From a virus: a DNA stretch of 29,455 bases. Shown here piece by piece: positions 53-29,455 of this stretch. The DNA is taken from IMG/VR virus record IMGVR_UViG_3300025594_000040, positions 1-29,455 of that record, one strand, 5' to 3'. The notes under the pieces are model-generated. The model was not told the origin of the DNA, did no database searches, and saw only the letters and a list, made by a program, of their open reading frames with translations. The translations under genes were made by a program, and so were the position numbers. Position 1 is the stretch's first letter; each line of letters opens with the position of its first letter.

Positions 53-87
53 AAAGAGATCCAAACGGGTTAGGTATGGATCCCTTT
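53..87 (-). terminator. hairpin, possible terminator
   Basis: On the minus strand AAAGGGATCC pairs with GGATCTCTTT (10 bp with one G-U wobble) around a 15-nt loop. It lies just downstream of the small membrane-protein gene and is followed by an A/T-rich stretch without a clean T run. It probably ends or attenuates minus-strand transcription. The first 50 bases of the window hold nothing else I can support, except that bases 1-3 read as ATG on the minus strand and might start a gene outside the window. Confidence 0.4.
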
Positions 88-97
88 AGTTTATCAA

Positions 98-292: not shown

Positions 293-339
293 AGTCTTAT
301 CTCCATATCTCAGGAAAACCAAAAAAGAGAGATTAGACC

Positions 340-1239: not shown

Positions 1240-1248
1240 CTAGGGAAC

Positions 1249-2076: not shown

Positions 2077-2137
2077 ATGGTATTCTTTCGTTTGTTAAAA
2101 AAAGGAGTATTCTTTGGTTAGGTTTTTGGGTGTTTAG

Positions 2138-2875
2138 TTATGCCGTGTAGTAACCAGTTAGTCGATCCATAATTACCTGTGCATCATTATCTACATAAGT
2201 CTCAGGAGTAGTGAACAAACCCATAGGAGAGCGAATGCGGTCACCTACAGTATGTTTTGTTGTCTTGGTTTGGAATACGTGCTTGAAGCCAAGTGCGCGT
2301 TCTTCATCCGTGATAACTAACAATTTGTTGTCGTCTTCATACGTAACAAGATCTTTGACACGTATTTTTTTAGTATTGATGACTGTTGTGAAATAGGCTT
2401 CCAGCCCATTCTTTTTCAACGCACCTTTGACTGGTACAGTATATTGGATCTGACCTGTGTTTTCGTCTAACAACCCGTCAAGGTGGCCCAAACATATAAC
2501 ATACGCATCAACTTTTGCAACATAATCATACATTAATGTCTTAAAGAATTGTCCGTATGCACCCCATTGTTGCATGGTATTTGCTGAACCAATAACGTGA
2601 ACTGCTTCGAAACGTTCCATCATGAATGAGATTGTATCAATTACAACCGTATGGTAACGGCCAGTGTTATCGTCGATCAACATTTGAAGATATTCAAAGA
2701 TCTCATAAGGATCATCAATTGTCACCTTCTTAAAGTTGTTCTTGAATGGGAGTGGTTTGCCTGCTTCACAATTAATGTAAAGCACGCCTTCTTGACCACG
2801 AATATTGATTAGTGAGGCTGATTTACCCATACCGGATTCACCGGAAATGAGTAGGGATTTTGGATGATCTGACAT
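2138..2875 (-). CDS. Sak4-like RecA-fold ATPase
   Basis: P-loop ATPase of the phage Sak4/AAA_24 type, a RecA-fold protein that promotes single-strand annealing or strand exchange with phage SSB. Walker A is GESGMGKS at about residues 12-19; Walker B is HTVVIDTISFM at about 75-85; CLGHLDG near 130 fits the sensor strand. Its 245 residues match the single-domain family size. Next comes the SSB gene, the usual partner. The start is firm: AAAGGAAA lies 7 nt before the ATG. Upstream is a 482-nt structured non-coding stretch. DnaB-like helicase is less likely because of the size and the very short N-terminus. Confidence 0.8.
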   Translation of the reverse strand: MSDHPKSLLISGESGMGKSASLINIRGQEGVLYINCEAGKPLPFKNNFKKVTIDDPYEIFEYLQMLIDDNTGRYHTVVIDTISFMMERFEAVHVIGSANTMQQWGAYGQFFKTLMYDYVAKVDAYVICLGHLDGLLDENTGQIQYTVPVKGALKKNGLEAYFTTVINTKKIRVKDLVTYEDDNKLLVITDEERALGFKHVFQTKTTKHTVGDRIRSPMGLFTTPETYVDNDAQVIMDRLTGYYTA

Positions 2876-3357
2876 ACAGTTTCCTTTGGTTAGAAATTTT
2901 GAGAGCCTTTATTACGACACAGACTTGTATATATTGCACTGCCCTTTTGCTCAAGTCGAACACGTTTTACCTCGGTGTGTTACTCCTCTGAGGGTTAAGG
3001 TTTTCCAGTCACCACATGCTTAATAATTTGGACTCTTCAAAGGTCGCTTCGACCACCACCGATCTGGGATGCATGTTAACCGTCTGCCTATTATCCCTTA
3101 CGGGAATTTGCAGGACATATTTGCAGCATATCCAGGCTGTAGTCTGAGTGATATGGAGGGTTTTTCAGGCCCTGAAGTCTACCTCGCTTTGCCATGCCTG
3201 ACATTGCACCTGGGTATCCTCATGTCCGTTGCTTTTCACTCATTAAGTTTAAATAGAACCATGTACATCGGTACACGTTTTCATAAGACCCTGCTTTACT
3301 AGGTTGTTCCCTGATGTGTGATACAGGACAACCCTTGCCATGGTTCTATCTAACTTG
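2876..3357 (-). other. structured non-coding region
   Basis: No credible gene fits these 482 nt on either strand. Several inverted repeats are visible. An 11-bp perfect stem ATAGAACCATG/CATGGTTCTAT (3339-3349 with 3253-3263) encloses a hairpin in which GGTTGT+CCTG pairs with CAGG+ACAACC (3302-3333). Others are GGTCG/CGACC with a 3-nt loop (3042-3054), TCCC-GTAA-GGGA with a GNRA-type loop on the minus strand (3094-3105), TTCAG/CTGAA (3164-3176) and GACAT/ATGTC (3200-3226). Position between the primase and Sak4 genes suits a long structured leader, a small RNA or a replication origin. Two short strings resemble group I intron P7 strands, but no exons fit. Confidence 0.55.
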
Positions 3358-5520: not shown

Positions 5521-6499
5521 TGAAGTATTCCTTTCGCTGTTCACAACCAGAAAAGGCAGGACAGTATTCACAAGCCTTAACTTCACCGGGAACTTTAACT
5601 ACTACACCCTTACCTTTAGACTTTTTCCATAGTTCTGCGTCTGTTGGTGAGGTGAATCGTTTGGTACATTTACCGCCAAGCTTTGCTTTTTCTGGATCTG
5701 CATAGTATTTGTATACGTCATCAGATCTCCACAATTCTTTATCAGTACAACGAACCATTGTTTCTTGGTTCTTGCCTGCATTAGCACGGATATCTGCTAA
5801 TTTATCGGACATCCACTCTTCTGTTTCTTTTAGAGATAGTAGGGTAAACTCTTTGTGGGTTACCCGTGTTTGTGGGTAATTTGGATTCTGTTTGGACATA
5901 AATTTTTGCCAATCAGTAAAGATAAACTCAATACGCATTGTGTCTTCTTTAATAATGTCCTGCATGATCCAACGATACATAGAACCTTGGAGCATGTAAT
6001 CCATGTCTTTTGAACCAGACATATAAGAGAATACTGATGTAGATTTGAAGTCTCGATATGCGGCGCCAACACAGAAGTCCAATTGACCTGTGAGCACGAT
6101 ATCTTCAAATTTACGAAAGCCACGTTTCTCTAAATAAATTGGGATCTCGTCTTCCTTTAGTGTTCCATCTTTTGGATTGATTCGTATCCGATCAATGATT
6201 TCTTGAGGATAATGAAGTGTACGCATGGCTTGCTGCCAATTACCTTCAGTCCATGCACGTTCAATTGAGTCATGTAATCCATGTCCCATTCGAGATGCTA
6301 TCATATCCGACACGTCGTAATCTTCATCTGATCTGTCGGTTTTACGACCCAGAATCAACTGTCGAGTTGGCTTTAGTAATGTAGTCACGGAGATCAGCTC
6401 CCCTTCGGGGGCATCCTTTGCTCCACTGTTGTACCCATCCTGAAGTAACCAAACTGCCATAGGCAAGTCGATCATGTGTTTGTTGGTTATGTTGACCAT
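5513..6499 (-). CDS. PD-(D/E)XK nuclease, RecB/Cas4-like
   Basis: Exonuclease-like protein of the PD-(D/E)XK superfamily, likely processing DNA ends for replication or recombination. Visible motifs: GHGLHD (His 73/76), LTGQLDF (Asp 141), RDFKSTS (Asp 150, Lys 152) and LQGSMYRW (Gln 171, Tyr 175). The C-terminus has three cysteines (CEYCPAFSGC), which together with an upstream cysteine could hold an iron-sulphur cluster as in Cas4/AddB-type nucleases. The cluster is inference. It overlaps the primase start by a GTGTCTAA junction. There is no CRISPR array nearby, so it should not be read as a CRISPR gene. Confidence 0.75.
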   Translation of the reverse strand: MVNITNKHMIDLPMAVWLLQDGYNSGAKDAPEGELISVTTLLKPTRQLILGRKTDRSDEDYDVSDMIASRMGHGLHDSIERAWTEGNWQQAMRTLHYPQEIIDRIRINPKDGTLKEDEIPIYLEKRGFRKFEDIVLTGQLDFCVGAAYRDFKSTSVFSYMSGSKDMDYMLQGSMYRWIMQDIIKEDTMRIEFIFTDWQKFMSKQNPNYPQTRVTHKEFTLLSLKETEEWMSDKLADIRANAGKNQETMVRCTDKELWRSDDVYKYYADPEKAKLGGKCTKRFTSPTDAELWKKSKGKGVVVKVPGEVKACEYCPAFSGCEQRKEYFSV

Positions 6500-6893
6500 A
6501 TCGTTTTTCTTTCGTTCTTTGGTTTATATTCTTGGTGAGTTCAGATAACTGCTCTCTTGCACGTAATACAGGAATAGATGTCATTTTGGGATCAAAGATG
6601 TAATGGTCGTAGATAACATGAACATTATGAATACTACGAACCTTATGAATATCACTATTTAGAGGGTGGAATTTTATGTACTGATTATAGTACTCTATCT
6701 TATCTTTTTTAATCAAAGTTGAAGGATCAGGGTTATAGATACTAGCCATTAAATTTCTGGTGTAATCCCTTTCACGATAATCCAAGACAATGAACAATAC
6801 ATTTATCCCATCCAGTAGAAAGTCATCATGTGCACATACTAATTGAGCAGTTGTTCTACCACTACCACGATCAGGATCAGGATCTATCATCAT
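6342..6893 (-). CDS. small P-loop-like protein with overlapping C-terminus
   Basis: Hypothetical protein with a P-loop-like start (DRGSGRTT, about residues 8-15) and a hydrophobic strand NVLFIVLDY, followed later by HVIYDHY. It may be a small nucleotide-binding protein of the kind seen beside phage replication genes. Its start overlaps the polymerase C-part stop as ATGATGA. The last 50 or so residues overlap the nuclease gene in another frame and are low in hydrophobic pattern. A stop codon exists one frame away at the position where the gene would be expected to end, just before the nuclease ribosome site, so the overlap may come from a one-base slip or stop loss. Confidence 0.5.
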   Translation of the reverse strand: MMIDPDPDRGSGRTTAQLVCAHDDFLLDGINVLFIVLDYRERDYTRNLMASIYNPDPSTLIKKDKIEYYNQYIKFHPLNSDIHKVRSIHNVHVIYDHYIFDPKMTSIPVLRAREQLSELTKNINQRTKEKRYGQHNQQTHDRLAYGSLVTSGWVQQWSKGCPRRGADLRDYITKANSTVDSGS

Positions 6894-7648
6894 ACTATTC
6901 CTTCTTCTTTCAAGTAGCTCAAATGTTTTTTAATACATTCGTTGATTTCATCTTCCGTGGTGGCATTAGGTATGTCGAATTCAGCCCCCCAATGAGGGTG
7001 AAAGATTGCCAGTTTACCTGACATTGAGATGTGTTCATTTTGGATTGCAGGATCCTCTTGCCAACTCACAGCTTTAGAAAGATGCGTGTTGGTGTACATA
7101 AGTGTTTCCATATTATCCCGGATCAGGAAGTAACCTGCATCATGTATTTGTGAGCATGGTTTAATATCCAGACGGTATTTTTCCTTACGGACTTTTAATA
7201 GAAATTCAGATCCAGCACGGCTATTTAGCATACACCAGGACTGTCCCAACGCATTACCGGCTGTTCTGCCTTCGGCAGCAGCCTCAAATGGCGTCTTGGA
7301 TGTCCCTAGTACCACCTGCTTTAGTAGGGGAGTACGGAGCCTCAAGCCAAAGGCAAGAGTAACGTATCCATCCTTACAGGCTTGATCTAAACGATCAGCA
7401 ACCCATGTGTCTGATACCACATAAAGTTTGTGGTAACTGCTCTCAACTGATAGTGCCAGTTTCCTAGCAAATCCACAGTTGGTCATCAGTGTCATATAGG
7501 TTCCCTGGTATGTCAGAGCAAATGTAGGTGCTTTACTTTTCTGTCTTAAAGGTTTGTATTTCATGGAAATAGAGTTAACTCGGCTCACATTATGAACCGA
7601 GTTAACTACAATAGACACCCGTGCAATTGGGGTGTCTATTTTAAGCAT
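6890..7648 (-). CDS. DNA polymerase A, C-terminal part (motifs B and C)
   Basis: Carries the finger and palm motifs missing from the upstream polymerase gene: motif B LRQKSKAPTFALTYQG (about residues 34-49; Phe at the position of E. coli Phe762) and motif C QIHDAGYFLI (His169-Asp170, with Ala where Glu is usual). The matched homology seems to begin near VNSISMKYKPLRQ. The first 25 codons come from two perfect hairpins and read as a palindromic peptide, so they may not be native. Two starts are possible: ATG at 7648, overlapping the stop of the 54-aa gene, or ATG at 7564 (MKYKPLRQ), neither with a strong ribosome site. With the N-part it would form a two-subunit family A polymerase. Confidence 0.85.
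   Translation of the reverse strand: MLKIDTPIARVSIVVNSVHNVSRVNSISMKYKPLRQKSKAPTFALTYQGTYMTLMTNCGFARKLALSVESSYHKLYVVSDTWVADRLDQACKDGYVTLAFGLRLRTPLLKQVVLGTSKTPFEAAAEGRTAGNALGQSWCMLNSRAGSEFLLKVRKEKYRLDIKPCSQIHDAGYFLIRDNMETLMYTNTHLSKAVSWQEDPAIQNEHISMSGKLAIFHPHWGAEFDIPNATTEDEINECIKKHLSYLKEEGIV
7573..7607 (-). repeat. perfect 11-bp inverted repeat (hairpin 2)
   Basis: AGTTAACTCGG (7573-7583) pairs perfectly with CCGAGTTAACT (7597-7607) around a 13-nt loop. Its arm nearer the polymerase C-part encodes residues that look like native polymerase (RVNSIS); the other arm repeats the same bases inverted. It lies 2 nt from hairpin 1. No T run follows, so it is not a standard terminator. Confidence 0.8.
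7610..7640 (-). repeat. perfect 11-bp inverted repeat (hairpin 1)
   Basis: AATAGACACCC (7610-7620) pairs perfectly with GGGTGTCTATT (7630-7640) around a 9-nt loop. On the RNA it begins directly after the TAA of the 54-aa gene, overlapping the start region of the polymerase C-part. Possible roles are control of translation of the C-part, mRNA processing or protection, or the trace of a mobile insertion. Confidence 0.8.
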
Positions 7649-7805
7649 CGGTCATCTTTGACAACTGATACCATTCTTTGGCAGTTTTCAACTGACCTTT
7701 AAAACGAACAACCACATCAGCTCCGCTGATAGTAGCTTTATTGTTCTTACTTATGACAGTGAATGTTCCGTCTTCATTTTTGGTAATTTTAGGAGTTAAA
7801 TTCAT
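7641..7805 (-). CDS. hypothetical protein, 54 aa, in polymerase gap
   Basis: Small unrecognised protein with alternating polar and hydrophobic residues (FTVISKNNKATISGADVVV) that suggest a beta-sheet fold, then a short helix ending KEWYQLSKMTDA. The start overlaps the previous gene as ATGA and the stop overlaps the possible polymerase C-part start as ATGCTTAA, so translation is probably coupled along the cassette. No function can be assigned. Confidence 0.6.
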   Translation of the reverse strand: MNLTPKITKNEDGTFTVISKNNKATISGADVVVRFKGQLKTAKEWYQLSKMTDA

Positions 7806-8251
7806 GCATCACCTACCACTTGGGCTTTAACTGCCCACATGGAAGCATCTTCAAGCTTGGTAAGTGCAATACTGCGACGACGACCTGCAGGCAGGCTACC
7901 AATTAAGGAAGCCATGTCATTTGCTGCCGTTTTAAGATCGGAGATCATTGTGTCTCCTGATGGGTTAAATCCCACATCAGTTACAGTTGTTTTACTTCCC
8001 TTCACCTCTTCGTAGGTGGCTTTGAAGATCTCTGGTTTGCAAGGATAAAATTCCCCTGCAACACCTCTGATGATTATATCACCTGCGGAAGCAAGCATGT
8101 TACCTTCTTTGGTTGGTATGATGACACCATCATCGACACCTTTCCAACCTTTTTGTAGAACCAACTCCTTAAGCTCCTCACTCGACTCTTCACCTTGCAG
8201 TGGTACTTGCCATGCTGTAATGACAACAGGTAATTTGCGATATAGTTTCAT
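7802..8251 (-). CDS. PGDYG-like domain fused to Acb2/Tad1-type hairpin domain
   Basis: 149-residue protein with two parts. Residues 1 to about 85 resemble the common phage PGDYG-type protein: MKLYRKLPVVITAW, EGNMLASAGDIIIRG and GEFYPCKPEIFKATYEEV. The C-terminal 45 residues (DMASLIGSLPAGRRRSIA, LTKLEDASMWAVKA) match the pattern of the helical hairpin in Acb2 and Tad1, phage proteins that bind cyclic nucleotide signals and block CBASS or Thoeris defence. That function is inferred from family resemblance only. The ATG at 8251 directly follows the previous stop (TAACATG) and has AAAGAG upstream; an upstream ATG at 8275 lies inside the previous gene. It sits between the two polymerase parts. Confidence 0.6.
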   Translation of the reverse strand: MKLYRKLPVVITAWQVPLQGEESSEELKELVLQKGWKGVDDGVIIPTKEGNMLASAGDIIIRGVAGEFYPCKPEIFKATYEEVKGSKTTVTDVGFNPSGDTMISDLKTAANDMASLIGSLPAGRRRSIALTKLEDASMWAVKAQVVGDA

Positions 8252-8252
8252 G

Positions 8253-8459
8253 TTATACTCTTTTGAATCGTGCAATACGACTCTCTAAGATTTCGTGATA
8301 CCGGCTCATCGTAGCATGTTGTTGCTTCAAATGGGTTTTATCAATAGTTTCCAAATCATGATAAATGGTGCCACCTATAAATTTTTTTAGAGCTACCACT
8401 TTAACAAGCAGTTCTACTGCTTCTTGGACAACTCGAATTTCATGATCGTTTAAGTTCAT
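8253..8459 (-). CDS. small helical phage protein (crAss001_48-type)
   Basis: 68-residue, almost wholly helical protein. The pattern RVVQEAVELLVKVVALKKFI, then LKQQHATMSRYHEILESRI, fits the widespread small phage family annotated as crAss001_48-related, whose role is not settled. Start is firm: AAAGGAA lies 5 nt before the ATG, which overlaps the polymerase N-part stop as ATGA. So it is translationally coupled to that polymerase part. Confidence 0.6.
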   Translation of the reverse strand: MNLNDHEIRVVQEAVELLVKVVALKKFIGGTIYHDLETIDKTHLKQQHATMSRYHEILESRIARFKRV

Positions 8460-10546
8460 GACGTTCCTTTCTGTATTAGTAAATACAAATCTTTCCCCAA
8501 CATTTCAGTGCCGAGGTAATCAATTATTTCTTCCGAGTGGAAGTAAATGTGACCGTTTCCGATTATAGCTTCATACGATATTCCTCCTTCTGGTGTCATT
8601 TTAATATCTTCCATTTCGTCACCAAAATAAGCCAATGCCCGTAGGCAGTGACCATCATATCCATCAGAATACACTTTAATTTTCTGTGGATCGTTTGTTG
8701 TTACAGCTGAGATCTTGTCTTCTAGGGAGTCGAAATCCAGCCCAACAAATAACCATCCGGGAGGAGCTTCAAAGCATTCCTTGATGAGTTTTGCAAGTCT
8801 TTGTTTTACCTTGCTTGAACCTGCAGATGGAATATTCTGCAGGTTGGGGTTGTTGGAAGATAATCTACCAGATGCTGTGCCTCCAAGCCTAAAGTTTCCG
8901 AATAAATAATGCCAACCATCGCTACCTTTTTTGGCCAATAAGAAGGCCGGAAGGAATGTGGATAGGATTATTGCCGAAGCTTTGTGCTCGATTAATACAT
9001 CAAGGAAGACAAGTACCTCTGGATCCTCAGTATGATTTTTGAGTTTATCCAGAGTTTCTGCACCCGTTGCAGGCTGCTTAGTATCTGTATAATCTAAGAC
9101 AGGTAAACCAAGGAAATCTTCTGAGTACAATAGACGTTGTAACTGTTTCGGAGATCCAGGGTTGAAGTCTATCATCGTATCTTTAGTTTTACCTAAATCT
9201 GCTCTAGTAATTTGCTTGGTTTTGAGCTTCTCATTTTTCTTAATGACTAACTCATCTTTTAGCGTATCCATAAAGCTTTCAACAATATTCATATGGTTCA
9301 TACGGTTTTCAAGAACTGTGGCTTCACCTTGAAGAAGTTTCTCCAAAGCAACAACCTTATCCATGTTGATGGGCATACCTGTGAGCTGCATCTGTATGAT
9401 GTCAATCACCGCTGGCCTGAAGATCGCAGCATAGAATTCCATCTGATCATCAGCTATCGCTATTGGTAGATTTTTTTCATAAACATACCAAGTAGATAGT
9501 CCATCAATGAGGTTGTATTTTAAGAGTTCATCCATAGGAATTTTGCGAATATCTTTAATGTCTTCGACAGCATAGTTTCCCGCAAACTCTTGAGCTTGGA
9601 TCTTCAGACCTAGCTCGTTGCCTGCACATGAATTGGTGGCTAGATATGTAATCAATTGAGAGCAATCCCAATTGCGTAACATAACTTCCAATCCTGTAAG
9701 TAAACCTTCTTGATCCAGAATGTCTTCCATAAACAACTGGTAAACCAACACATAAACATCATAGCAGATGTTATGGTAGATCATCTTATTTTGGAAAGCC
9801 TCAAAGAATGTCTTCAGAGCTTTTCGTATGACAGGATTAGTTACCTGTTTGCCATAATGACCTGTATCTACGTCATAAAAGATGGACTTATAATCTATTG
9901 GAAATGCAACACCGTGGTGCTGATCCCAACAAAATGTGATGGTTCCGATCCCTGCATCATAATGCTTGAGTGAGAACCCTTCGATGTCACATGTAAGATC
10001 ACAGTCCATCTCGTATAGTTTATCTAACCAATCAAGAATTTCTTGATCAGTTTGTGGATATGCACAGAATTTGATGATATTAGATCCCACCTTCATGTCG
10101 TCACCTTGTTCATGTTTTACTAAGGTTTCTAGTGAAAGTTTAATCTTTGCATTCATCTTATCTGGATCATAAAATACTCGTGCATAGTTAGGGCAGTATG
10201 TTGCCTTTAAACCTGGAACAACTGTGTCCATGATATCACCGATACGAGCATCAGTTTTAGTTTGTTTGGTTAGAATCTTAAAGTAATCTGGTTGAGTAAC
10301 CACAAGCATATTAATACCTGCATCCAACAAATACGGAATGAGGTCATTTAGGTACTCTTTTATATCAGCTGCAGATGTTTTCTTCTTGGTTGGATCCTTA
10401 TATAGATCGCAGACCATCACATTAGTACGAAGATCCTTTAAATAGGGATCGTAATAGTGCTTCTGGATCTCTGTGACTTGGATTCGAGGACAGAGTATAG
10501 CTATCTCTGGCTCAGTTTCGTAGATACCTACAATCTCGTAACCCAT
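8456..10546 (-). CDS. DNA polymerase A, N-terminal part (exonuclease and motif A)
   Basis: Family A DNA polymerase lacking its last third. The 3'-5' exonuclease motifs are intact: Exo I CDIEGF (Asp187, Glu189), Exo II YHNICYD (Asp263), Exo III YNLID (Tyr344, Asp348). The polymerase part shows TASGRLSSNNPNLQNIP (about 557-573), motif A GLDFDSLEDK (Asp604) and DGHCLRALAYFGDEMEDI. Homology appears to stop near residue 648. The last 48 residues (starting MTPEGG) are probably a small gene fused in frame. Motifs B and C are encoded about 1 kb downstream. Proofreading could work alone; synthesis would need the second piece. GAGGAG precedes the start. Confidence 0.88.
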   Translation of the reverse strand: MGYEIVGIYETEPEIAILCPRIQVTEIQKHYYDPYLKDLRTNVMVCDLYKDPTKKKTSAADIKEYLNDLIPYLLDAGINMLVVTQPDYFKILTKQTKTDARIGDIMDTVVPGLKATYCPNYARVFYDPDKMNAKIKLSLETLVKHEQGDDMKVGSNIIKFCAYPQTDQEILDWLDKLYEMDCDLTCDIEGFSLKHYDAGIGTITFCWDQHHGVAFPIDYKSIFYDVDTGHYGKQVTNPVIRKALKTFFEAFQNKMIYHNICYDVYVLVYQLFMEDILDQEGLLTGLEVMLRNWDCSQLITYLATNSCAGNELGLKIQAQEFAGNYAVEDIKDIRKIPMDELLKYNLIDGLSTWYVYEKNLPIAIADDQMEFYAAIFRPAVIDIIQMQLTGMPINMDKVVALEKLLQGEATVLENRMNHMNIVESFMDTLKDELVIKKNEKLKTKQITRADLGKTKDTMIDFNPGSPKQLQRLLYSEDFLGLPVLDYTDTKQPATGAETLDKLKNHTEDPEVLVFLDVLIEHKASAIILSTFLPAFLLAKKGSDGWHYLFGNFRLGGTASGRLSSNNPNLQNIPSAGSSKVKQRLAKLIKECFEAPPGWLFVGLDFDSLEDKISAVTTNDPQKIKVYSDGYDGHCLRALAYFGDEMEDIKMTPEGGISYEAIIGNGHIYFHSEEIIDYLGTEMLGKDLYLLIQKGTS

Positions 10547-10549
10547 AGA

Positions 10550-10669
10550 TTACTCCTCTGCTGCTTGTTCTTCTCTCAACATCTTTAGTAGGATCTTTGC
10601 ATCCCCATCTCCACATTCACTCATACCTATGAGATAGTTGTGGATCATGGTTTCTAGTCCACTTCCCAT
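10550..10669 (-). CDS. hypothetical small protein, 39 aa
   Basis: Short open frame filling the gap between the helicase-side gene and the polymerase. It is helical and acidic at the end (LLKMLREEQAAEE), with its stop just before the polymerase start; the polymerase ribosome site GAGGAG lies inside it. No clear ribosome site precedes its ATG. It could be a real coupled gene or a spacer. Confidence 0.4.
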   Translation of the reverse strand: MGSGLETMIHNYLIGMSECGDGDAKILLKMLREEQAAEE

Positions 10670-10675
10670 GATTAA

Positions 10676-10756
10676 TCAAAACTCATCAGTATCATCTGGT
10701 ACGATGTCTTTGTCTGATTTCTTAAATTTGCCATAAAATAATTCCATACTGCTCAT
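10676..10756 (-). CDS. hypothetical small protein, 26 aa
   Basis: Very short frame that begins as ATGA on the helicase stop codon and ends 6 nt before the next small frame. It is Lys-rich in the middle and acidic at the end (PDDTDEF). The overlap geometry, typical of real genes in this genome, is the only support. Confidence 0.35.
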   Translation of the reverse strand: MSSMELFYGKFKKSDKDIVPDDTDEF

Positions 10757-12027
10757 TCGAAATACCTTTTTGGTAGTTCTCCACGGATGTAGAGACGTTT
10801 CTTTGGACGTGACAATGCAACGTATTGCATACGAGCTGTCTGTCCTTTGTTGGTTGATTTGCCAATGTCTGTTAGATCCACGATCACAGATTCATAGGTA
10901 GAACCTTGAGCCTTGTGAGTTGTAGACGCTGCTACAGAACGAAGATCCGGGAAAGAATTCTTTACTTTAAAGTACTTATCCCAACGTTTGTTGTTGGCAT
11001 AGAACTTAATTGTGTCCACACGTTCTTCAGGATCTGCAAAACAATTGATGGTGTAAGTAGAACCTGTGGTTATATCTGCAACAACCATTTCTATCATGGC
11101 AATATCGTATCCAACTACTACTTCAGAATCAAAGTATGAACGTACTAAGCTTTCAACTTTAACTACCTGATCAGTGTACATACGCTGCTTATCTGGAAGT
11201 TCTACTGAGGAGTTGTTTACAAGGATCTCACCTTCAACAAAAGGTTCAGTGTATCCACGCATTTCTCGTATAAATGTATTATACTCCATCACACGTTTGT
11301 TGGTGTATGATAGAATTCGACGCATAGGATTCTCAGAATGGTATTCACGTTCAAGGATCCCACGTAAGGTATTTCCGTCAACGTAGTCTATCACACCAGG
11401 TACTGGGATGATCGGTGTAAAGATACCCGTCTCCACAGTCAACTTAGCTTGCTCACACAACTCCATTAGGGCTGGTTGTTCAGCATTACGTACAGGCTGT
11501 GTTAGATAGGCTGTGCGATAGTTATTTGCGTAGATAGGAGAGATCATTTCTTTGATCGGAGCCAATTGATTCTTATCACCTACAAATAGAACTTTACAAG
11601 ATGAATCTAGACCTTTGTCTAGGTAGTTCATTAGTTCTCGGTTCACCATTGAACACTCGTCAATGACTAGAAAGATCCCAGAATGAACAACCCATTTTGC
11701 AGTAGGAACACATTTAACTTCACCTGTGCGGAAGTTTTCACTTACCCGAAGGTTCATGAATGAGTAAATTGTTTTGATTTCTGAATGGTGGTTTGGCATT
11801 GCTTCTGCGATCACAGCTGCAGCCTTGTTTGTTGTGGCTGTCACTTCAACTGTGTGTAGTCCACTCTCAGCAGCTGCATGGCGTATAATGCTCTCTGCTA
11901 CTTTACTGATAAAAAAGGTTTTGCCTGTGCCAGCACCCCCCGATAGTGCCATGTATTTTTCATTTGGGGCGTTGGTAAAGTTGATCAATTCAATGAATGC
12001 ACTTTGCTGCCCGGCGTTTAGTCCCAT
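10753..12027 (-). CDS. Dda/RecD-like superfamily 1 helicase
   Basis: DNA helicase of the SF1B type (T4 Dda or RecD2-like), moving 5'-3' on ssDNA in replication, recombination or origin unwinding. Motifs: Q-like NAGQQSAF near the start, motif I SGGAGTGKT (about 29-37), motif II VIDECSM (about 120-126), motif III FVGDKNQLAP, then STTHKAQGSTYE and motif VI YVALSRPKKRLYI near the end. 424 residues match Dda size. It precedes the polymerase gene in transcription order. Confidence 0.88.
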   Translation of the reverse strand: MGLNAGQQSAFIELINFTNAPNEKYMALSGGAGTGKTFFISKVAESIIRHAAAESGLHTVEVTATTNKAAAVIAEAMPNHHSEIKTIYSFMNLRVSENFRTGEVKCVPTAKWVVHSGIFLVIDECSMVNRELMNYLDKGLDSSCKVLFVGDKNQLAPIKEMISPIYANNYRTAYLTQPVRNAEQPALMELCEQAKLTVETGIFTPIIPVPGVIDYVDGNTLRGILEREYHSENPMRRILSYTNKRVMEYNTFIREMRGYTEPFVEGEILVNNSSVELPDKQRMYTDQVVKVESLVRSYFDSEVVVGYDIAMIEMVVADITTGSTYTINCFADPEERVDTIKFYANNKRWDKYFKVKNSFPDLRSVAASTTHKAQGSTYESVIVDLTDIGKSTNKGQTARMQYVALSRPKKRLYIRGELPKRYFE

Positions 12028-12053
12028 GGAGTAATCCTTATTATTAAATTTGA

Positions 12054-12076
12054 TCCCCTACCATTACAGTAGGGGA
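12054..12076 (-). terminator. hairpin between nrdJ and helicase
   Basis: Perfect 8-bp stem TCCCCTAC/GTAGGGGA with a 7-nt loop, 27 nt before the helicase start. The following minus-strand bases (TCAAATTTAAT) are A/T-rich but lack a T run, so termination is possible but weak; it may also protect the mRNA end. Confidence 0.45.
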
Positions 12077-12099
12077 GTTTTGTGCGGCTCTCATCGGTG

Positions 12100-12134
12100 A
12101 ATTCCGTATCAGGCACAGTGCCTGTATTGGAGTT
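12100..12134 (-). repeat. extended hairpin after nrdJ stop
   Basis: CAGGCA/TGCCTG (6 bp, 3-nt loop) is flanked by a second stem AACTCC/GGAATT on the minus strand across a 4x4 internal loop, with one mismatch or wobble. It lies 7 nt after the nrdJ stop. No T run follows. Confidence 0.5.
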
Positions 12135-12140
12135 CAGTTG

Positions 12141-14576
12141 TTACCCGCACTTGGAGTGGCCACAGTCTTTACAGGTTGGGCAGCCACTATCATTAACTAT
12201 ATTAAACCCATTACAGTTTGGACATTGTTTTGGGGTTGGTTGAGATTTTTGGTCTTCTATAAGCTCTTCAAATGTTTGAGTTTCTTCTACCTTCAAAGAC
12301 TGATCCAGTTTAATGTACCCAATGTTCTTGAGATGTGTCTCAACGACATCACCGAGAAGAGCGATGAACGATGGGATATATCCCTTTCCTGCTACGAATT
12401 GACCTCCATTTGGATCCATCACAGACTTCAATTCTTCCACTACGAAGTTTATATTACCACCTCTACGAAATACTGCTGAAATCATACGTGTAAGTGCTAC
12501 AGTCCACTGGAAATGTTCCATATTTTTTGCGTTTATGAAGATTTCAAATGGTATAGTCTTACTGTTGCTATCTACAGTGTCATTGATAGTGACATAGGTA
12601 GCCTGACCTTCCCAGCGGATCTTGTAAGAACTGCCAGATAGGGTATCAGGACGGGCCATTACATTATTATCTACATCAACTGGTTCAGGTGCACCAATAA
12701 AGTTTGGAAATGGAGTGTCTTCAACTTTATCTTCGATAGATAGGACTGATCCTGTAATATCGTTGGGTCGGTAAGTGGTGCAACCTTTACACCCCATCTT
12801 CCAAGCAGCCATGTATACATCCTGAAATTCATCAAATGATATATCTTCAGGGCAATTAATGGTCTTGGATATTGAGCTGTCTACCCATTTTTGTAGAGCA
12901 GCCTGCATGACAAGGTGATCATGTGGTGATAGTGTTTGAGCTGTGACCAAACATTCAGCACCTTCTCCAGTAAGATTTGGATCTTTATCCTGCCCTTGAG
13001 TATCACGAAACTCATGATACTTTTGGATTGCGTAATCCATCACCTTCTCTTCACGTTTGGTTCCATCACCATTAAGAACCTTGCGTGTGTACTCAGGAGC
13101 GAAAATAGGCTCACCACCAGAAGAAACATTACCTGCATACAAACTGATTGTACCTGTTGGAGCAATTGAAGTCAGCAATGCATTACGGATACCGTTATCG
13201 TAAATGTCACGTTTGATGTAATCGGGCATCTTTTTCATGAAACCAGAATGGATAAACTTTGTACGTTTAGTAATAGTACTTGTAGCTGGACAGGGGCCAA
13301 ATCGTTTAGCCAAATTAATTGACTCTTCGTAGGCCGCAATTGTGATCATCTCCATCACACGTTCAGTTTCTCTAATTGCATCATTACTGCCGTATTTAAA
13401 GCCCATCATAAACAACATGTCAGCGAGACCTGTCACACCAATACCCATACGACGTTTCTCTTTTGCTTCAGCTTCCTGTTGTGGAAGTGGAAAGATTGAG
13501 ATGTCAATAACACCATCCAACATTTGTACTGCAGCTTTCACAGTTCTGATTAGTTCTTCATCATTTATAAGTACATTTGATTGGAATGCATTTTGTACAA
13601 ACTTAGGTAAGTTTATTGAACCAAGTAAACAAGCACCATATGGAGGTAATGGCTGCTCACCGCAAGGGTTGGTAGAGCGAATGTCTTCCATGTACCACAG
13701 GTTGTTCTGCTTATTGATTGTGTCGATGAATATAATACCTGGTTCAGCTTGGTTGTACGTTGAGTGCATGATAGTTTCCCACAGCTCTCGTGCACGTATT
13801 ACTTCGTAAACATACTCCCCATTGATTTGATTGTGTCCTTTATATGTGACACGTTTTGTAGGTTTGATTTTGTGTTTTAATACCCACTCTTCATCATTTT
13901 CTACAGCTCGCATGAAATCATCTGAAGCCAGGACAGAAACATTGAACATCCGTAAACGTAGAGGGTCTTTCTTTACTTCTACAAACTTCATTACATCTGG
14001 GTGTGTGCAATCCATTGTCGCCATCATCGCTCCTCGGCGTGAACCTGCAGACATGATAGTTTTACACATGGTATCCCAAACATCCATAAATGTAAGTGGG
14101 CCTGAAGCATCAGCATCAACACCTTTAACTGGTGCGCCTTGTGGTCGTAAAGGACTGAAGTCATAACCTATACCCCCACCTTGTTGCATTGTGAGTGCTG
14201 CTTCTTTTAGCATGTCAAATATGCCTGCTAAATCATCTGGAATCGTACCCATGACGTAACAGTTGAATAGTGTAACCTGACGACCAGATCCTGCGCCTGC
14301 AGTAATACGACCAGCAGGTAAAAATTTGAAGTCTTCAAGTGCATCATAGAACTTAGATTCTAATTTGTGCTTACATTTAACACCCTGTACAGATGAACTT
14401 TTTGGAGGGTTACCATATATGGTTTTGTTGGCATAAGCACATGCTGCTGCAATACGTTTCCATGTATCTTCAACTGTTGTATCATTTGCTATTTCAGGAT
14501 TAGGGGTAGTGAGTTTATATTTTCCGTCCCATATCTGCTCTGAGATTGGTTGGGAAAATGAAGAATTATCTGTCAT
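12141..14576 (-). CDS. nrdJ: class II (adenosylcobalamin) ribonucleotide reductase
   Basis: Reduces ribonucleotides to deoxyribonucleotides using a B12-derived radical, so needs no separate radical subunit. Key residues: FNCYV (Cys106) and the finger loop NPCGEQPLPPYGACLLG (Asn303, radical Cys305, Glu307, partner Cys316). MQQGGGIGYDFS and SAGSRRGAMM are typical of class II enzymes, and no NrdB-like gene is present. The C-terminus (about 680-811) has a TSCPD-like domain and ends with a cysteine-rich CPNCNGF...CPTCKDCGHSKCG segment that can relay reducing power or bind zinc. The ATG at 14576 has AAGGAAA upstream; an ATG at 14621 has none. No cobalamin riboswitch motif is seen in its leader. Confidence 0.93.
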   Translation of the reverse strand: MTDNSSFSQPISEQIWDGKYKLTTPNPEIANDTTVEDTWKRIAAACAYANKTIYGNPPKSSSVQGVKCKHKLESKFYDALEDFKFLPAGRITAGAGSGRQVTLFNCYVMGTIPDDLAGIFDMLKEAALTMQQGGGIGYDFSPLRPQGAPVKGVDADASGPLTFMDVWDTMCKTIMSAGSRRGAMMATMDCTHPDVMKFVEVKKDPLRLRMFNVSVLASDDFMRAVENDEEWVLKHKIKPTKRVTYKGHNQINGEYVYEVIRARELWETIMHSTYNQAEPGIIFIDTINKQNNLWYMEDIRSTNPCGEQPLPPYGACLLGSINLPKFVQNAFQSNVLINDEELIRTVKAAVQMLDGVIDISIFPLPQQEAEAKEKRRMGIGVTGLADMLFMMGFKYGSNDAIRETERVMEMITIAAYEESINLAKRFGPCPATSTITKRTKFIHSGFMKKMPDYIKRDIYDNGIRNALLTSIAPTGTISLYAGNVSSGGEPIFAPEYTRKVLNGDGTKREEKVMDYAIQKYHEFRDTQGQDKDPNLTGEGAECLVTAQTLSPHDHLVMQAALQKWVDSSISKTINCPEDISFDEFQDVYMAAWKMGCKGCTTYRPNDITGSVLSIEDKVEDTPFPNFIGAPEPVDVDNNVMARPDTLSGSSYKIRWEGQATYVTINDTVDSNSKTIPFEIFINAKNMEHFQWTVALTRMISAVFRRGGNINFVVEELKSVMDPNGGQFVAGKGYIPSFIALLGDVVETHLKNIGYIKLDQSLKVEETQTFEELIEDQKSQPTPKQCPNCNGFNIVNDSGCPTCKDCGHSKCG

Positions 14577-14644
14577 GAGATTTCCTTGGTTTGTGTTTTG
14601 TAGAGTTGGGGATCCAGTCATATATGTATAACTGATTTTAGTAA

Positions 14645-14690
14645 TTAAAAAAGAACCCGCAAAGCAGGACAGACTTCACGGGTTCTTCGG
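14645..14690 (-). terminator. rho-independent terminator upstream of nrdJ
   Basis: Minus-strand stem AAGAACCCG/CGGGTTCTT (9 bp) followed by an unbroken run of T residues. It separates the 104-aa gene from nrdJ, so nrdJ likely has its own promoter in the 70 nt that follow, or depends on read-through. Confidence 0.8.
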
Positions 14691-14728
14691 TGCGTGCAGG
14701 ATTAAGGGGAGGAGAAATCCGCACTGCT

Positions 14729-14768
14729 ATTTGACCTCAGTTCTTAGGGGGAGTAACATCGGTCAAAT
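14729..14768 (-). repeat. 8-bp inverted repeat after the 104-aa gene
   Basis: ATTTGACC (14729-14736) pairs with GGTCAAAT (14761-14768) over a 24-nt loop containing a C-rich run on the minus strand. It starts 3 nt after the stop of the 104-aa gene and precedes the nrdJ terminator. Function unknown. Confidence 0.45.
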
Positions 14769-14771
14769 TCT

Positions 14772-15086
14772 TTAGTTCATTTTAGATTTATAGTCTTCGT
14801 CCATTGGGTTGATACCAGCTAAACTAGCCATATGATTTAGTCCTGTCAAGAAAGCGTTACACTCATCTGGTGTATTGAAAGTAAACTCATCACTTTTACC
14901 ATCAGTGGTTTGTACTACCATAGTCAGATTTTCATCTAAATCTGGCTGAGTGACTGTTGTGTACTCTACCAGTTCCTTTAATAATTTATCTGCCAATGGT
15001 GATTGCTCTACCTCTGCACAACCAACATTATTACATAATATTAGTAAATTCTCAGCCAATTTACGTGGCATGGATATATTAGACAT
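14772..15086 (-). CDS. hypothetical protein, 104 aa
   Basis: Unrecognised. The N-terminal third is helical (PRKLAENLLILCNNVGCAEVE), the middle has a beta-like stretch LTMVVQTTDGKSDEFTF, and the end is a helix around NAFLTGLNHMASLAGI. The start overlaps the stop of the broken zinc-ribbon frame as TAATG. No function is proposed. Confidence 0.65.
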   Translation of the reverse strand: MSNISMPRKLAENLLILCNNVGCAEVEQSPLADKLLKELVEYTTVTQPDLDENLTMVVQTTDGKSDEFTFNTPDECNAFLTGLNHMASLAGINPMDEDYKSKMN

Positions 15087-15300
15087 TATTTACACCTTTC
15101 ACATGTACTCACGTATTGTGATTTTGAGTTATGTTTATCACCACACTTACTACAATGTACTTCATAGTTAGAGTGTACTCCGAGATCTACTAGTAAAGTA
15201 TCAGTCTCCATTACACCACAACCATAAGCATGGTTTTCTTTTCTGGCACAGATGGGACGTAGGTCAAAACCCTCTTGCAGTCAGCAACATCGTGTTTCAT
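15086..15300 (-). pseudogene. small zinc-ribbon protein with apparent frameshift
   Basis: A good ribosome site (AAAGGAAACC) precedes ATG at 15300, but that frame (MKHDVADCKRVLTYV...) ends after 29 codons. From about 15280 another frame reads LQEGFDLRPICARK, then a CxxC...CxxC pattern (HCSKCG, TCERCK), ending TAA just at the next start. Joining them with one extra A near CTGCAAGAG gives MKHDVADCKEGFDLRPIC..., a plausible four-cysteine-pair zinc ribbon. This may be a mutation, a sequencing error or programmed slippage. A shorter start at 15211 (41 aa) has no ribosome site. Confidence 0.5.
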
Positions 15301-15347
15301 TTGGTTTCCTTTGGTCGAGTAGGTTCATCGGTAACAGTAATCAAAGC

Positions 15348-15488
15348 TTAAGGCGGGTTCCATCGACGTAAAGTACCTAGATTATCTTGGCAGAAAAAAA
15401 CATGCCCCTGCATTTCCAATATGCGGCGTTCATAGTTTTTTACCTTTAGTTCCAAAATTTACTGATTGTTTAAGGTTTTATTCTCCAT
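15348..15488 (-). pseudogene. small coiled-coil-like gene with in-frame stop
   Basis: ATG at 15488 overlaps the previous stop as TGATG and opens MENKTLNNQ, then TAA, then in the same frame ILELKVKNYERRILEMQGHV...RRWNPP before a second TAA. The downstream part looks like normal helical protein. A CAA-to-TAA change would explain the break. Expression could also resume at a non-ATG start, so loss of function is not proven. Confidence 0.4.
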
Positions 15489-16351
15489 CACTTCACCCCC
15501 ATACTGTCATAGAGGGCTTGGAAATGGGCTTGGGCTGCGGCTTTTGCTTTTCCCAAGCAATCACCGTCATAAATCACAGTGCCGTTATTTAGCGTGGTCT
15601 TGAATGTATAACTATCGGACGCCCACCCCTGTTCGATTGTGTAGTTTGAATTATTACAGCATCTAAACCAACCTATTGGTGCTTCGACCCACTCCAGCGC
15701 CTTAGCCTTGAGGTTAGCGGCGGCGTAACCTGCGTTGTAGGCGTCATTTAAACAATTAGTATGATGTTTCCATACAACAGACGGACACCCCAAAGGTTCC
15801 TTAACATGTGCATTAAACCATTCATCAAACCCCTGTGGTTCAGGATTGGTTAGGTGCGGCAGTAGTGCGTTAATGACAGCTTCCGCACAATCCCATGTGC
15901 CAGTATTCGCAGGATCGAAAGCTATGGTCTTTTCTATTGTTGCCTGAGCAATCCCTATCAAAGCTTTCCTGTCAGGTGGTGTGGGCTGTTTACACTCGAT
16001 ACGTGGCGGTTTATCGAACAACGCTTCAACCGCCCTATAAGCAGTTTCTTGGCCGTTTACTTCAGCGCTACGCAGATTAAGGTCTGCATTTAGTTCATCG
16101 TCCCATTTGCGTTTTGCTACAGGTGGTAAATCCGCAATGGCCTGTAATGCGTCCTTAGCGGTGGGATCGGGCGCGGGGCGGGTGTTCCATATGGCGATGT
16201 AATCGCGGTCTGTATAGCGTGACGATGCCCCACAATTATCGCACACTATGCGGTGAGATGGTCTTAAAATCGTCCCTTTGTGGTGTTCAACCATTAAACT
16301 GTTATCATCACCACAAAACGGGCAGGGCTTCAACTCTGGTTTATCGGTCAT
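15488..16351 (-). CDS. Lar-like zinc-finger protein with long C-terminal extension
   Basis: The first 60 residues match the Lar (restriction alleviation) type zinc ribbon: LKPCPFCG, then VCDNCGAS, then AIWNTR. Lar proteins of lambdoid prophages moderate host EcoKI restriction, but many phage proteins carry this ribbon, so anti-restriction is only a possibility. The remaining 220 residues contain QGFDEWFNAHV and a C-terminal segment (GWFRCC...GDCLGKAKAAAQAHF) seen in phage accessory proteins. I start at ATG 16351 (MTDKPELKPCP) because GGAGAG lies upstream and it overlaps a short frame as ATGA. GC content is visibly higher than in the replication genes. Confidence 0.6.
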   Translation of the reverse strand: MTDKPELKPCPFCGDDNSLMVEHHKGTILRPSHRIVCDNCGASSRYTDRDYIAIWNTRPAPDPTAKDALQAIADLPPVAKRKWDDELNADLNLRSAEVNGQETAYRAVEALFDKPPRIECKQPTPPDRKALIGIAQATIEKTIAFDPANTGTWDCAEAVINALLPHLTNPEPQGFDEWFNAHVKEPLGCPSVVWKHHTNCLNDAYNAGYAAANLKAKALEWVEAPIGWFRCCNNSNYTIEQGWASDSYTFKTTLNNGTVIYDGDCLGKAKAAAQAHFQALYDSMGVK

Positions 16352-26318: not shown

Positions 26319-26366
26319 AATAAAAAGCCCTATAGATAAATGAATATCTATAGGGCTTTAGTTTTT
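26319..26366. terminator. bidirectional 15-bp hairpin terminator
   Basis: Perfect stem AAAGCCCTATAGATA/TATCTATAGGGCTTT with a 6-nt loop. T-rich runs follow on both strands (TTTTTATTTTT on minus, GTTTTTTAG on plus). On the minus strand it closes the dNMP kinase/ThyX operon right after the stop and separates it from the fibre block. Confidence 0.9.
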
Positions 26367-27823
26367 TAGTCGAGTGCAGACACAATGATAGGTACACCAT
26401 AATCGCCTTCGACTGATTTTGTGGTCATAGTATCAAAGATCTCAGGAGCTAGATTTTGAGCCTTAACCAGCAAAGCAATCGCCAAACGTCGTATTTCTAA
26501 ATCTGCTCCAAGGCCACCACGTAACCACAAGAAGTGTTGTAGAATGCGCATGTTGGTAGTCCAAAGGAACCGAGTTTCAGTGCAGTTTGGTAAGTGAGCA
26601 CGAGCCGCTTCATTAGCACGCTTTTTGAATACAGTTGCAGCTTTTACATCTTCAAGTCCACTATCTGCAATCATTTGATTGGTAATAGCTTTCTGTAGTT
26701 GAGTATAATTTACAACAGCATCTAGGCTTGTTTGATGAAAGTTATAAAGAACTCCTTGATCACCTGGTTTTTCATTTTTTGCCATATTGACTACTGCAGG
26801 TGGTACTACGAAATTAATCTCAGAAGCATCAACATACCGTTGAGATTCTTGAGAAAGGGCAATTCCAACCCGATGACGTGCAAGCTCTAGGGATAGTGAG
26901 CGAGAAACTCCCTGAATACCCCAGTTGATTGTTGCATGTTCCATTACAGAACCATGCTCCATAGCCATGATATTTCGGATATAAGACACACGATCACGTC
27001 CTTGATTCCAAGCACGATAACAGTGACGCCCACCGAATTCGATCATACGAGCAATACTATCCTTCTCGTTCATCTCATCCCATAGTTTACCTAATGGGGT
27101 TGCTGTGTCCAAGGACATTTCACCTAACCCATTGTAGTCAATCCAGTTTTCAAACTCTTCAGTATTGAATGTGGTTTTACCAATTGCAAATACCTTTGGC
27201 TCAAATACAAGTGCATTCTTTGCAGCACCTAAATCAAGATCTTCATTTTTAGCAGCAACAATGTTTGCAGCAACTGCAACATTTACAGGCTCTTTGTAAT
27301 TTACATCAAAACCTTCTGCATGTAGCATTTTTTGAAGATTTAGAACTAAAGGTTCTACAGCAGATTCAGGCCCATTGTTGTTTAACACAAGATCTGCATC
27401 TGCTTTTGTTATAGTCATCCCCATTTCAGGTGGAATACGATCAGCAGCATCAATCCAGATTACATGATCAAACAGACCTTCATTCACTGCAGCAACCAGT
27501 TGCCCTTTATGACGTAAACCAACATACATATCATTGGTTTGCATTACATTACGAGCTTGTCGTGCCAAATCTGGAGTACAATAGGCTTCCATAAGGTTTT
27601 GCCAAATTGGAATGTGATTGTGACGATCTTCAAAGAATTGTCTGGTATTCTCATACCGTTCTCGTCCCCACTGATCCCAAAGGTACTCGTTAACTGCCCA
27701 CATGGTTGTAGACTCATAATGTAAACCCAATATCTTGCAGATAAGGGTTGCTACAATATCTTTTCCGGATTCAGAATGACCAACGATTAGGAGTTTAGGC
27801 TTCCCGCCTGTACGTTTAACCAT
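26366..27823 (-). CDS. thyX: dNMP kinase-like / ThyX fusion
   Basis: 485 residues with two parts. Residues 10 to about 190 resemble phage dNMP kinases: Walker-A-like GHSESGKD (15-22), VIWIDAADRIPPE (121-133) and ITKADADLVLNNNG. From about 210 it is flavin-dependent thymidylate synthase, which makes dTMP from dUMP using methylene-tetrahydrofolate and FAD. The ThyX signature region is ELARHRVGIALSQESQRYV, with RHR at 316-318 and Ser327; the usual pattern is RHR-x7-S, and here there are eight residues between. Fusion would pass dTMP to the next kinase step. It overlaps the preceding gene as ATGGTTAA. Confidence 0.85.
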   Translation of the reverse strand: MVKRTGGKPKLLIVGHSESGKDIVATLICKILGLHYESTTMWAVNEYLWDQWGRERYENTRQFFEDRHNHIPIWQNLMEAYCTPDLARQARNVMQTNDMYVGLRHKGQLVAAVNEGLFDHVIWIDAADRIPPEMGMTITKADADLVLNNNGPESAVEPLVLNLQKMLHAEGFDVNYKEPVNVAVAANIVAAKNEDLDLGAAKNALVFEPKVFAIGKTTFNTEEFENWIDYNGLGEMSLDTATPLGKLWDEMNEKDSIARMIEFGGRHCYRAWNQGRDRVSYIRNIMAMEHGSVMEHATINWGIQGVSRSLSLELARHRVGIALSQESQRYVDASEINFVVPPAVVNMAKNEKPGDQGVLYNFHQTSLDAVVNYTQLQKAITNQMIADSGLEDVKAATVFKKRANEAARAHLPNCTETRFLWTTNMRILQHFLWLRGGLGADLEIRRLAIALLVKAQNLAPEIFDTMTTKSVEGDYGVPIIVSALD

Positions 27824-28325
27824 GGTAGATGTCTTTCATTTGAGGTACTGGAACATTCAAAGTAGCTTTCAATGTAACCATTGCAGCATCATTTGTATGC
27901 TCTAATTGACCAATACGTTCTGCCAATTCTGCATTTAGATCATTGAGTTCTTCCCAACGTTCATCCATCATTGCGATGTTCTTGTCACGAGATTTGATCA
28001 CAGCTGTTAGAGATGCAACTTCATTGCGATAATCTGCAATCATACGGCGCATGTGAGTCAAGTGGCGGAAAGTTTCTGCTGTCTGTTTAGAAGTATCAGC
28101 ACGCATAGACTCGATAATACCGGAAGCTTTGGTGTGCTTATCCATCTCAGTTTCTAACAGATCTTGCAACGCAATGATTGTGCGTTTTTTGTCTGCAATA
28201 GTTGTTGGATACTGGCTCAGATCAGAGATCTGTTTACCTTTTGGGTTACGGCCTGACATGAATGCTTTCACATAGGCACGCACACGAAGCATGGCTTTAC
28301 GTGGATCTTCGTTTGTTTTGGTCAT
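27816..28325 (-). CDS. coiled-coil hypothetical protein, 169 aa
   Basis: Basic N-terminus (RKAMLRVRAYVKAFMSGRNPKGK), then long heptad-rich helices (DKKRTIIALQDLLETEM, EELNDLNAELAERIGQLEH), so an extended coiled coil. The overlap with the kinase/ThyX gene suggests joint expression. Role unknown. Confidence 0.6.
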   Translation of the reverse strand: MTKTNEDPRKAMLRVRAYVKAFMSGRNPKGKQISDLSQYPTTIADKKRTIIALQDLLETEMDKHTKASGIIESMRADTSKQTAETFRHLTHMRRMIADYRNEVASLTAVIKSRDKNIAMMDERWEELNDLNAELAERIGQLEHTNDAAMVTLKATLNVPVPQMKDIYHG

Positions 28326-28336
28326 ATTAAATCTTT

Positions 28337-28615
28337 CTATTTGAGTTGTTTGATGAGCATATCTGCCGCACCAATTACTGGGCCTGGAAAGTCCCGACGA
28401 AGAAGAGTACCGGCTGACAGATCATCTAGGGTGATCATGTATTTATGATGGTGCTCAATGATATCCCAATTGTTTGCCATGTGGATGGCAAGATTGTCGA
28501 ATGTATTATCCGTAATGATGTTTTCATCCCGCACATAATAAGCATATGATGCCATGAGATACCAAGGGACTGTGAGATTGATGTTTTTCTGTATTAGCTC
28601 AATGATATTCATCAT
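28337..28615 (-). CDS. small phage protein with ligase-Ia-like motif
   Basis: 92 residues. YLMASYAYYVRDENIITD and TFDNLAIHM resemble domain Ia of NAD-dependent DNA ligases (Y..D....D..FD.L), which binds the nicotinamide part of NAD. No adenylation domain is present, so it is not a ligase. Small stand-alone proteins of this look occur in phages, function unknown. The start overlaps the Cys-rich gene as ATGATGA. Confidence 0.5.
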   Translation of the reverse strand: MMNIIELIQKNINLTVPWYLMASYAYYVRDENIITDNTFDNLAIHMANNWDIIEHHHKYMITLDDLSAGTLLRRDFPGPVIGAADMLIKQLK

Positions 28616-28758
28616 CTGTCAGCTTCTCTTTTGTCCTCACACGAGACACAATCACAGTCTGTTTCTGTGCAGTTGCAACATTCTTGACAACAAGCACAGC
28701 CTTCACAGAAGGGCACATCATCTTCTGTATTTATACAGGCTTCACATTGGAATGCCAT
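28612..28758 (-). CDS. cysteine-rich mini-protein, 48 aa with 12 Cys
   Basis: Twelve of 48 residues are cysteine (positions 5, 8, 18, 21, 23, 24, 27, 28, 30, 35, 37, 40), mixed with Asp/Glu and no aromatic core apart from two Phe. It looks like a metal-binding, metallothionein-like or multi-zinc-knuckle protein. Start overlaps the previous stop as TAATG; stop overlaps the next start. Both overlaps and the unbiased cysteine spacing support a real gene. Confidence 0.6.
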   Translation of the reverse strand: MAFQCEACINTEDDVPFCEGCACCQECCNCTETDCDCVSCEDKREADR

Positions 28759-29168
28759 TATTTACGCCTCCGTGCTTTGGTTGGCTGATTTTGGAACCGC
28801 ATATGATTAGGGTTCTTTTCAGTTGGATGACCACCATGTTGACACTCAGAAGCTGTCTTAGTTGGTTCAAAATCAATATTGAATCGTTTATGTAAGTCAT
28901 ACTTTAGATATTCATTCATCATACAAGATTTACCAGATCCACGAAAAGCTTCTGGCCAAATAGGAGATTTGAGATCATGAGGTATACTGTTAATCAATAT
29001 ATCATAACTAGGTAACATTGAATGCTCATCAACAACCACAATATCAGCATGTTTACCTAATGTTTGAACCAATTCACGACTGACACTATTTTTGGTACTA
29101 AGGTAAGTACAATCTTTACTTGTCAATTCATCAATTATCCCACGAGGTCTTAAAGGTTCTTTGGGCAT
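28758..29168 (-). CDS. hypothetical protein with P-loop-like elements, 136 aa
   Basis: Unrecognised. HADIVVVDEHSM (40-51) looks like a Walker B strand, and FRGSGKSCMMNEYL (75-88) looks like a Walker A, so the order is reversed relative to ordinary P-loop proteins; the A motif also lacks its first glycine. The tail holds CQHGGH and ends KARRRK. It could be a rearranged ATPase fragment or chance. GGAG 9 nt before the ATG supports the start. Confidence 0.5.
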   Translation of the reverse strand: MPKEPLRPRGIIDELTSKDCTYLSTKNSVSRELVQTLGKHADIVVVDEHSMLPSYDILINSIPHDLKSPIWPEAFRGSGKSCMMNEYLKYDLHKRFNIDFEPTKTASECQHGGHPTEKNPNHMRFQNQPTKARRRK

Positions 29169-29455
29169 TAAAATTCTCCATGAATAGATTTATTGATGTG
29201 CTACTAGATCCACTCGATGTACTCTGTTGTTCAGAGCCTCTAGTCGTATCAAAGAGTAGCACATACGGAAATCAATCCAGTAATGTTCGGACTCACCTTA
29301 ACCAACTTGGGTTCGGATTATTGTCACGCATATTAGCGTTTTTCAGCTGTAGCAGGGTATTATCGCACTCCACATGTGGTGGAGTAATATTGCGATTGAG
29401 GTAGTCGGGTATCTTACAGCATTGTCTTGCTCCTAAATTATTTCCGGCACTTGGC
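29169..29455 (-). other. structured non-coding leader
   Basis: No gene supported in these 287 nt. Nested stems are visible: ATGTGCTACT/AGTAGCACAT (29196-29205 with 29255-29264, perfect 10 bp), inside it ACTAGA/TCTAGT (29203-29208 with 29239-29244) and CTCTG/CAGAG (29222-29236); ACTCCAC/GTGGAGT (about 29368-29386) flanked by ATCGC/GCGAT; and GCTGTA/TACAGC (29346-29351 with 29415-29420) around that. It lies just upstream of the 136-aa gene, so a 5' leader RNA, small RNA or intron fragment is possible. The left part of the structure may continue past the window end. Confidence 0.5.

Follow-up and report, generated by a model that had tools for sequence, protein, structure and literature searches.

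The region at the end of the window holds a stable hairpin, stem-loop 1, which sits just before the likely ribosome-binding site of a 136-aa gene and is not followed by a U-tract. With a probability of roughly 0.4, stem-loop 1 belongs to a polycistronic minus-strand mRNA of an N4-like roseophage as an ordinary hairpin between cistrons, where it may act as a processing site or as a 3'-end/stability element. The window is the whole 29,455-base virus record IMGVR_UViG_3300025594_000040, and the record stops at the 287-base region in question (29169-29455). In the original prediction this region was taken as a single structured leader of 287 nt, a view that was not supported: the second stem is unexceptional on the transcribed strand and may belong to the C-terminus of an upstream gene. 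The features discussed below are as follows.

28758-29168, minus strand: 136-aa gene, codon use in the normal range, no known family.
29169-29292, minus strand: gap of 124 nt that follows the TGA of the edge frame and precedes the 136-aa gene.
29176-29179, minus strand: GGAG, likely ribosome-binding site of the 136-aa gene as read from the sequence, 7 nt before the ATG.
29181-29279, minus strand: possible weak outward extension of stem-loop 1, with 25-nt arms that are 76% complementary.
29196-29264, minus strand: stem-loop 1, a perfect 10-bp outer stem with an inner CTCTG/CAGAG hairpin (29222-29236).
29293-29454, minus strand: 53-codon frame open at the contig edge (edge frame), containing stem 2, with poor codon statistics.
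29346-29420, minus strand: stem 2 of the original prediction, of unremarkable absolute stability on the transcribed strand.

Judged by sequence similarity, the window is an unfinished contig from a marine phage of the N4-like Schitoviridae, close to the roseophages of the Rhodovirinae. The primase of the window had matches in 462 records of the phage collection, and the best matches listed were N4-like roseophages of 72-76 kb with 66-71% protein identity. Schitoviridae and Rhodovirinae were the classification given in three opened records among the primase relatives. Positions 1-15586 of the window were identical to part of a 48,940-base IMG/VR record, from which the 287-base region is absent. 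All open reading frames of more than 160 aa in the window lie on the minus strand, and this strand was therefore treated as the RNA. Transcription of the minus strand across the hairpin is likely.

The outer arms of stem 1 (29196-29205 and 29255-29264) form a perfect 10-bp inverted repeat with a spacer of 49 nt, within which CTCTG-TTGTT-CAGAG makes a hairpin with a 5-bp stem. Of the three nested stems originally proposed for 29196-29264, the outer and the inner were recovered; the middle one, CTAGA/TCTAG, overlaps bases of the outer stem, and the inner pairs of the minus-strand minimum-energy fold differ from those proposed. The outward extension was lost once the fold took in the gene start. 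The 80 nt at 29190-29269 folded at -26.1 kcal/mol on the minus strand (z = -3.2, an energy matched by 1 of 200 shuffles) and at -23.1 kcal/mol on the plus strand (z = -2.54). In the context 29100-29455 the outer ten pairs had ensemble probabilities of 0.72-1.00. The leader of the 136-aa gene, taken as the 100 nt ending 12 nt before its start, gave z = -4.53 against 100 shuffles and ranked third among 25 gene leaders listed by hand from the table of open reading frames. For comparison, z values of -3 or lower occurred in 4% of 150 random minus-strand windows. By these measures stem 1 is more stable than expected by chance.

A serious, if doubtful, rival is that stem 1 has no function, being either a fortuitous fold in the short gap between genes or what is left of a terminator that has decayed. 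Taken alone, perfect 10-bp repeats within 60 nt are no rarity: about two are expected per window by chance (mean 2.1 in 8 shuffles), and six perfect repeats of at least 10 bp within 60 nt were counted in the window. The site of stem 1 was also only 14th by energy among non-overlapping 75-nt minus-strand windows, and the collections searched yielded no relative that could show conservation. Against a functionless fold stand the z value of the leader, third of 25, and the position of stem 1 immediately before the ribosome-binding site.

The absence of known RNA classes agreed with the original prediction. The tRNA search found none, and Rfam gave no match at gathering score in the window, in keeping with the claim that no known riboswitch was present. 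When matches with E up to 10 were admitted over the region, the best covariance-model hit had an E of 4.6 and 15.5 bits, compared with a cut-off of 43. The claim that no terminator fits was likewise borne out, as no terminator-like site was detected in 28700-29455. A Rho-independent terminator was defined by a G+C-rich stem with a T-run at once after it; after stem 1 the minus strand reads CAATAAATC, without a U-tract. The Rho-independent terminators of the contig (within 14622-14771, 20839-20899 and 26266-26365) resemble stem-loop 1 in being stable minus-strand hairpins in gaps, but they have a short loop and a T-run, whereas the arms of stem-loop 1 are 49 nt apart, enclose an inner hairpin and are not followed by a T-run. 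One promoter was found against a mean of 2.3 in shuffles, and none was above chance.

The virion RNA polymerase of the phage could in principle use stem 1 as a hairpin promoter, in the manner of N4, and this is the least probable of the readings considered, a very improbable one. The likeness consists of a hairpin in a phage of the same family: according to PMC3715699, the virion RNA polymerase of the N4-like group uses hairpin promoters. Those described there for LUZ7 and LIT1 have a stem of 4-5 nt and a 3-nt loop, whereas stems 1 and 2 have 5-nt loops and their stem size also misfits. In addition, the relatives carry the ThyX region roughly 5-20 kb inside their records, which also speaks against such a promoter.

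It had further been suggested that the region might regulate an operon. It is unlikely that translation of the 136-aa, Cys-rich, 92-aa, 169-aa and ThyX genes is under the control of a cis-regulatory leader here, whether of riboswitch type or bound by a protein. Structured sequence does precede the gene, and the region of the ribosome-binding site was partly paired in the ensemble (values taken at 29177-29174), a modelled pairing that may leave room for a translational effect. However, the stable part of stem 1 ends about 17 nt before the ribosome-binding site, leaving it unhidden, the leader has no Rfam match, and the genes ahead of the 169-aa gene were not kept in relatives at the loci examined.

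Hairpins were also seen at other junctions of the contig. Three other leaders had z values below -4, those upstream of 14621, 26265 and 12027, each with a terminator-shaped hairpin. A T-run followed the hairpins upstream of 14621 and 26265; none followed the one upstream of 12027. At the junction corresponding to the 12027 gene, the hairpin of relative L013 is followed by a T-run and that of relative L026 is not, from which it follows that junction hairpins vary in this group. Relative L007 has a 9-nt gap and no hairpin at this junction, a result that depends on the gene start chosen.

Polycistronic phage mRNAs contain intercistronic hairpins for processing or stability, for example the RNase III sites of T7. 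Stem-loop 1 is like the T7-type sites in form: its hairpin is irregular, lies between genes, comes shortly ahead of a ribosome-binding site and lacks a U-tract. Stem 1 has the form of an RNase III-type site, a long irregular duplex between cistrons, and its upstream cistron depends on the edge frame being coding. A search for literature on RNase III hairpins in Schitoviridae found none.

Since stem 1 has no U-tract, since no terminator-like site and no promoter beyond chance level was detected, since the early hairpin promoters of N4 do not fit, and since junction hairpins vary in the group, a processing or end-protection hairpin is the most economical reading. Stem-loop 1 would then mark the place where an upstream gene gives way to the 136-aa gene. 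It could be a processing site for a host double-strand RNase, leaving a protected end, or it could serve the upstream message as a 3'-end/stability hairpin. Stem 2 probably does not belong to this element. In favour of a junction hairpin are the z value of the leader, the probabilities of the outer pairs, the hairpins in the other leaders of low z and the minus-strand orientation of the long genes. Against it are the number of perfect 10-bp repeats expected by chance, the absence of any relative among the sequences searched and the L007 junction, which has no hairpin. If it is a processing or stability hairpin, stem-loop 1 adds one more candidate site in the transcripts of marine N4-like phages.

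The three-level stem proposed at 29346-29420 can be drawn, with pairs at 29346-29351/29415-29420, 29362-29366/29392-29396 and 29367-29373/29379-29385, but its energy is a common one. The 75 nt folded at -17.7 kcal/mol on the minus strand, a value equalled by 15% of 75-nt windows when both strands were counted. Compared with shuffles, the 80-nt fold had z = -3.28 on the minus strand; the plus-strand value was -2.73. Both stems had been placed directly before the 136-aa gene. This is correct for stem 1 only. On the minus strand no stop is met from the contig edge across stem 2 until the TGA at 29295-29293.

Of 131 true 53-codon chunks, only the lowest 3% had codon scores like that of the edge frame, which fell close to the middle when ranked among 101 wrong-frame open chunks. 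In agreement, a second codon model placed it at 2.9% among 170 true chunks and at 35% among 124 wrong-frame chunks. The frame looks protein-like at first sight, an impression without backing from these statistics. A 53-codon frame open to the edge in one of three frames arose in 9% of base shuffles. Since genes are tightly packed in phage genomes, there is a weak lean towards the edge frame as protein-coding. If it codes, the intergenic part is only the 124 nt at 29169-29292, and stem 2 may lie within the C-terminal end of the upstream gene. The original prediction had named a coding gene spanning the stretch as evidence against itself, and a coding edge frame may be such a gene for the half that holds stem 2.

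No match to the edge peptide was found in PHROGs, Pfam, the phage collection, IMG/VR or 34 related records. In relatives, a large gene that encodes an N4 gp25-like protein lies upstream of the ThyX side. The edge frame was rejected as the C-terminus of this protein, as the gp25-like C-termini of the relatives end differently and the best local alignments scored 46 against a shuffled maximum of 48 (20 shuffles). A small DNPNP family found before gp24 was rejected as well; the edge frame had no resemblance to the eight members compared. Inside the edge region, at 29420-29434 on the minus strand, AGGAG is followed after 7 nt by ATG CTG TAA, which resembles a ribosome-binding site with a two-codon open reading frame.

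The same codon statistics bear on the suggestion that a longer structured non-coding RNA ends in the 287 bases, stem 2 included, which is improbable. Consistent with it are the poor codon statistics of the edge frame, within the lowest 3% of true chunks, a z of -2.45 for the 287-nt minus-strand fold, and other gaps of 263-482 nt in the contig. Unfavourable to it are the 9% chance of so long an open frame, a similarity to the other gaps of the contig that is not beyond chance, and the lack of an Rfam match. Its more specific form is slightly less probable again: here the edge frame would be open by accident, and the 287 bases would make up the 3' part of a phage non-coding RNA of a new kind, whose last domains would be stems 1 and 2. 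Greater importance would attach to the region only if the flanking sequence revealed a long non-coding RNA, and the present evidence is unfavourable. As the collections searched gave no relative, operon regulation and the end of a longer non-coding RNA, both put forward originally, were left without positive support.

DNA searches with 27800-29455 and 29169-29455 found no relative in the phage collection, and 29169-29455 had none among plasmids. DNA patterns for stem 1 and the edge gave nothing in IMG/VR or GTDB genomes. A comparison of 28200-29455 with 34 of the 63 records found through the primase gave one 20-base match, in G023 (E 0.009), which was taken as chance. As these collections yielded no relative of the region, no alignment was available for covariation. 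In 12 comparisons the edge region resembled other gaps of the contig no more than expected by chance; one of them, with the opposite strand of 2876-3357, was equalled by only 1 of 100 shuffles.

The 136-aa protein had no relative in IMG/VR or GTDB genomes and none in 45 of the 73 viral records holding the 92-aa neighbour. Two weak matches (E 0.4 and 2) were obtained in the phage collection, and the best match among solved structures, to designed TIM barrels (E 0.054), was taken as chance. The protein contains the stretches VVVDEHSML and GSGKS, which we take to recall Walker B and Walker A motifs, with their order reversed. An AAA_14 match was sub-threshold (E 0.17). A relationship to the N4 gp24-like ATPases was rejected, with scores of 47, 47 and 41 against a shuffled maximum of 55. 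The 92-aa protein (28337-28615) is a stand-alone N-terminal NAD+-binding domain of DNA ligase (PF22745, E 3e-8), and its 73 relatives are in IMG/VR contigs, some above 100 kb.

The order gp24-like ATPase, gp25-like protein, deaminase, 169-aa-like, ThyX and 144-aa-like recurs in part in relatives, and the 169-aa, ThyX and 144-aa genes of the window are consistent with it. At the corresponding place, the loci examined held no relatives of the 136-aa and 92-aa genes. By these comparisons the neighbourhood of the hairpin appears to be specific to this phage within the collections searched. The ThyX gene (26366-27823, 485 aa) has a two-part appearance: residues ~5-190 match N4-like relatives (9 of 34 records, 37-45%), and residues 203-483 have their best match in a siphophage ThyX of Dinoroseobacter (63.5%).

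Two other sites of the window were recorded. About 480 nt at 2876-3357, after the primase, carry no minus-strand gene. Much of this stretch is kept in relative L003, and a longer version is present in L004 and L005, with a 136-aa open reading frame in L004. The best Rfam E was 1.7, and the stretch may represent either a variable locus or a structured RNA that is conserved. On both strands, the 75-nt fold of greatest stability in the window lies at 7571-7645 (-39.1 kcal/mol on the minus strand) and contains two adjacent 11-bp inverted repeats, at 7573-7607 and 7610-7640. It is located at the listed start of a 252-aa open reading frame, the reading of which may extend upstream.
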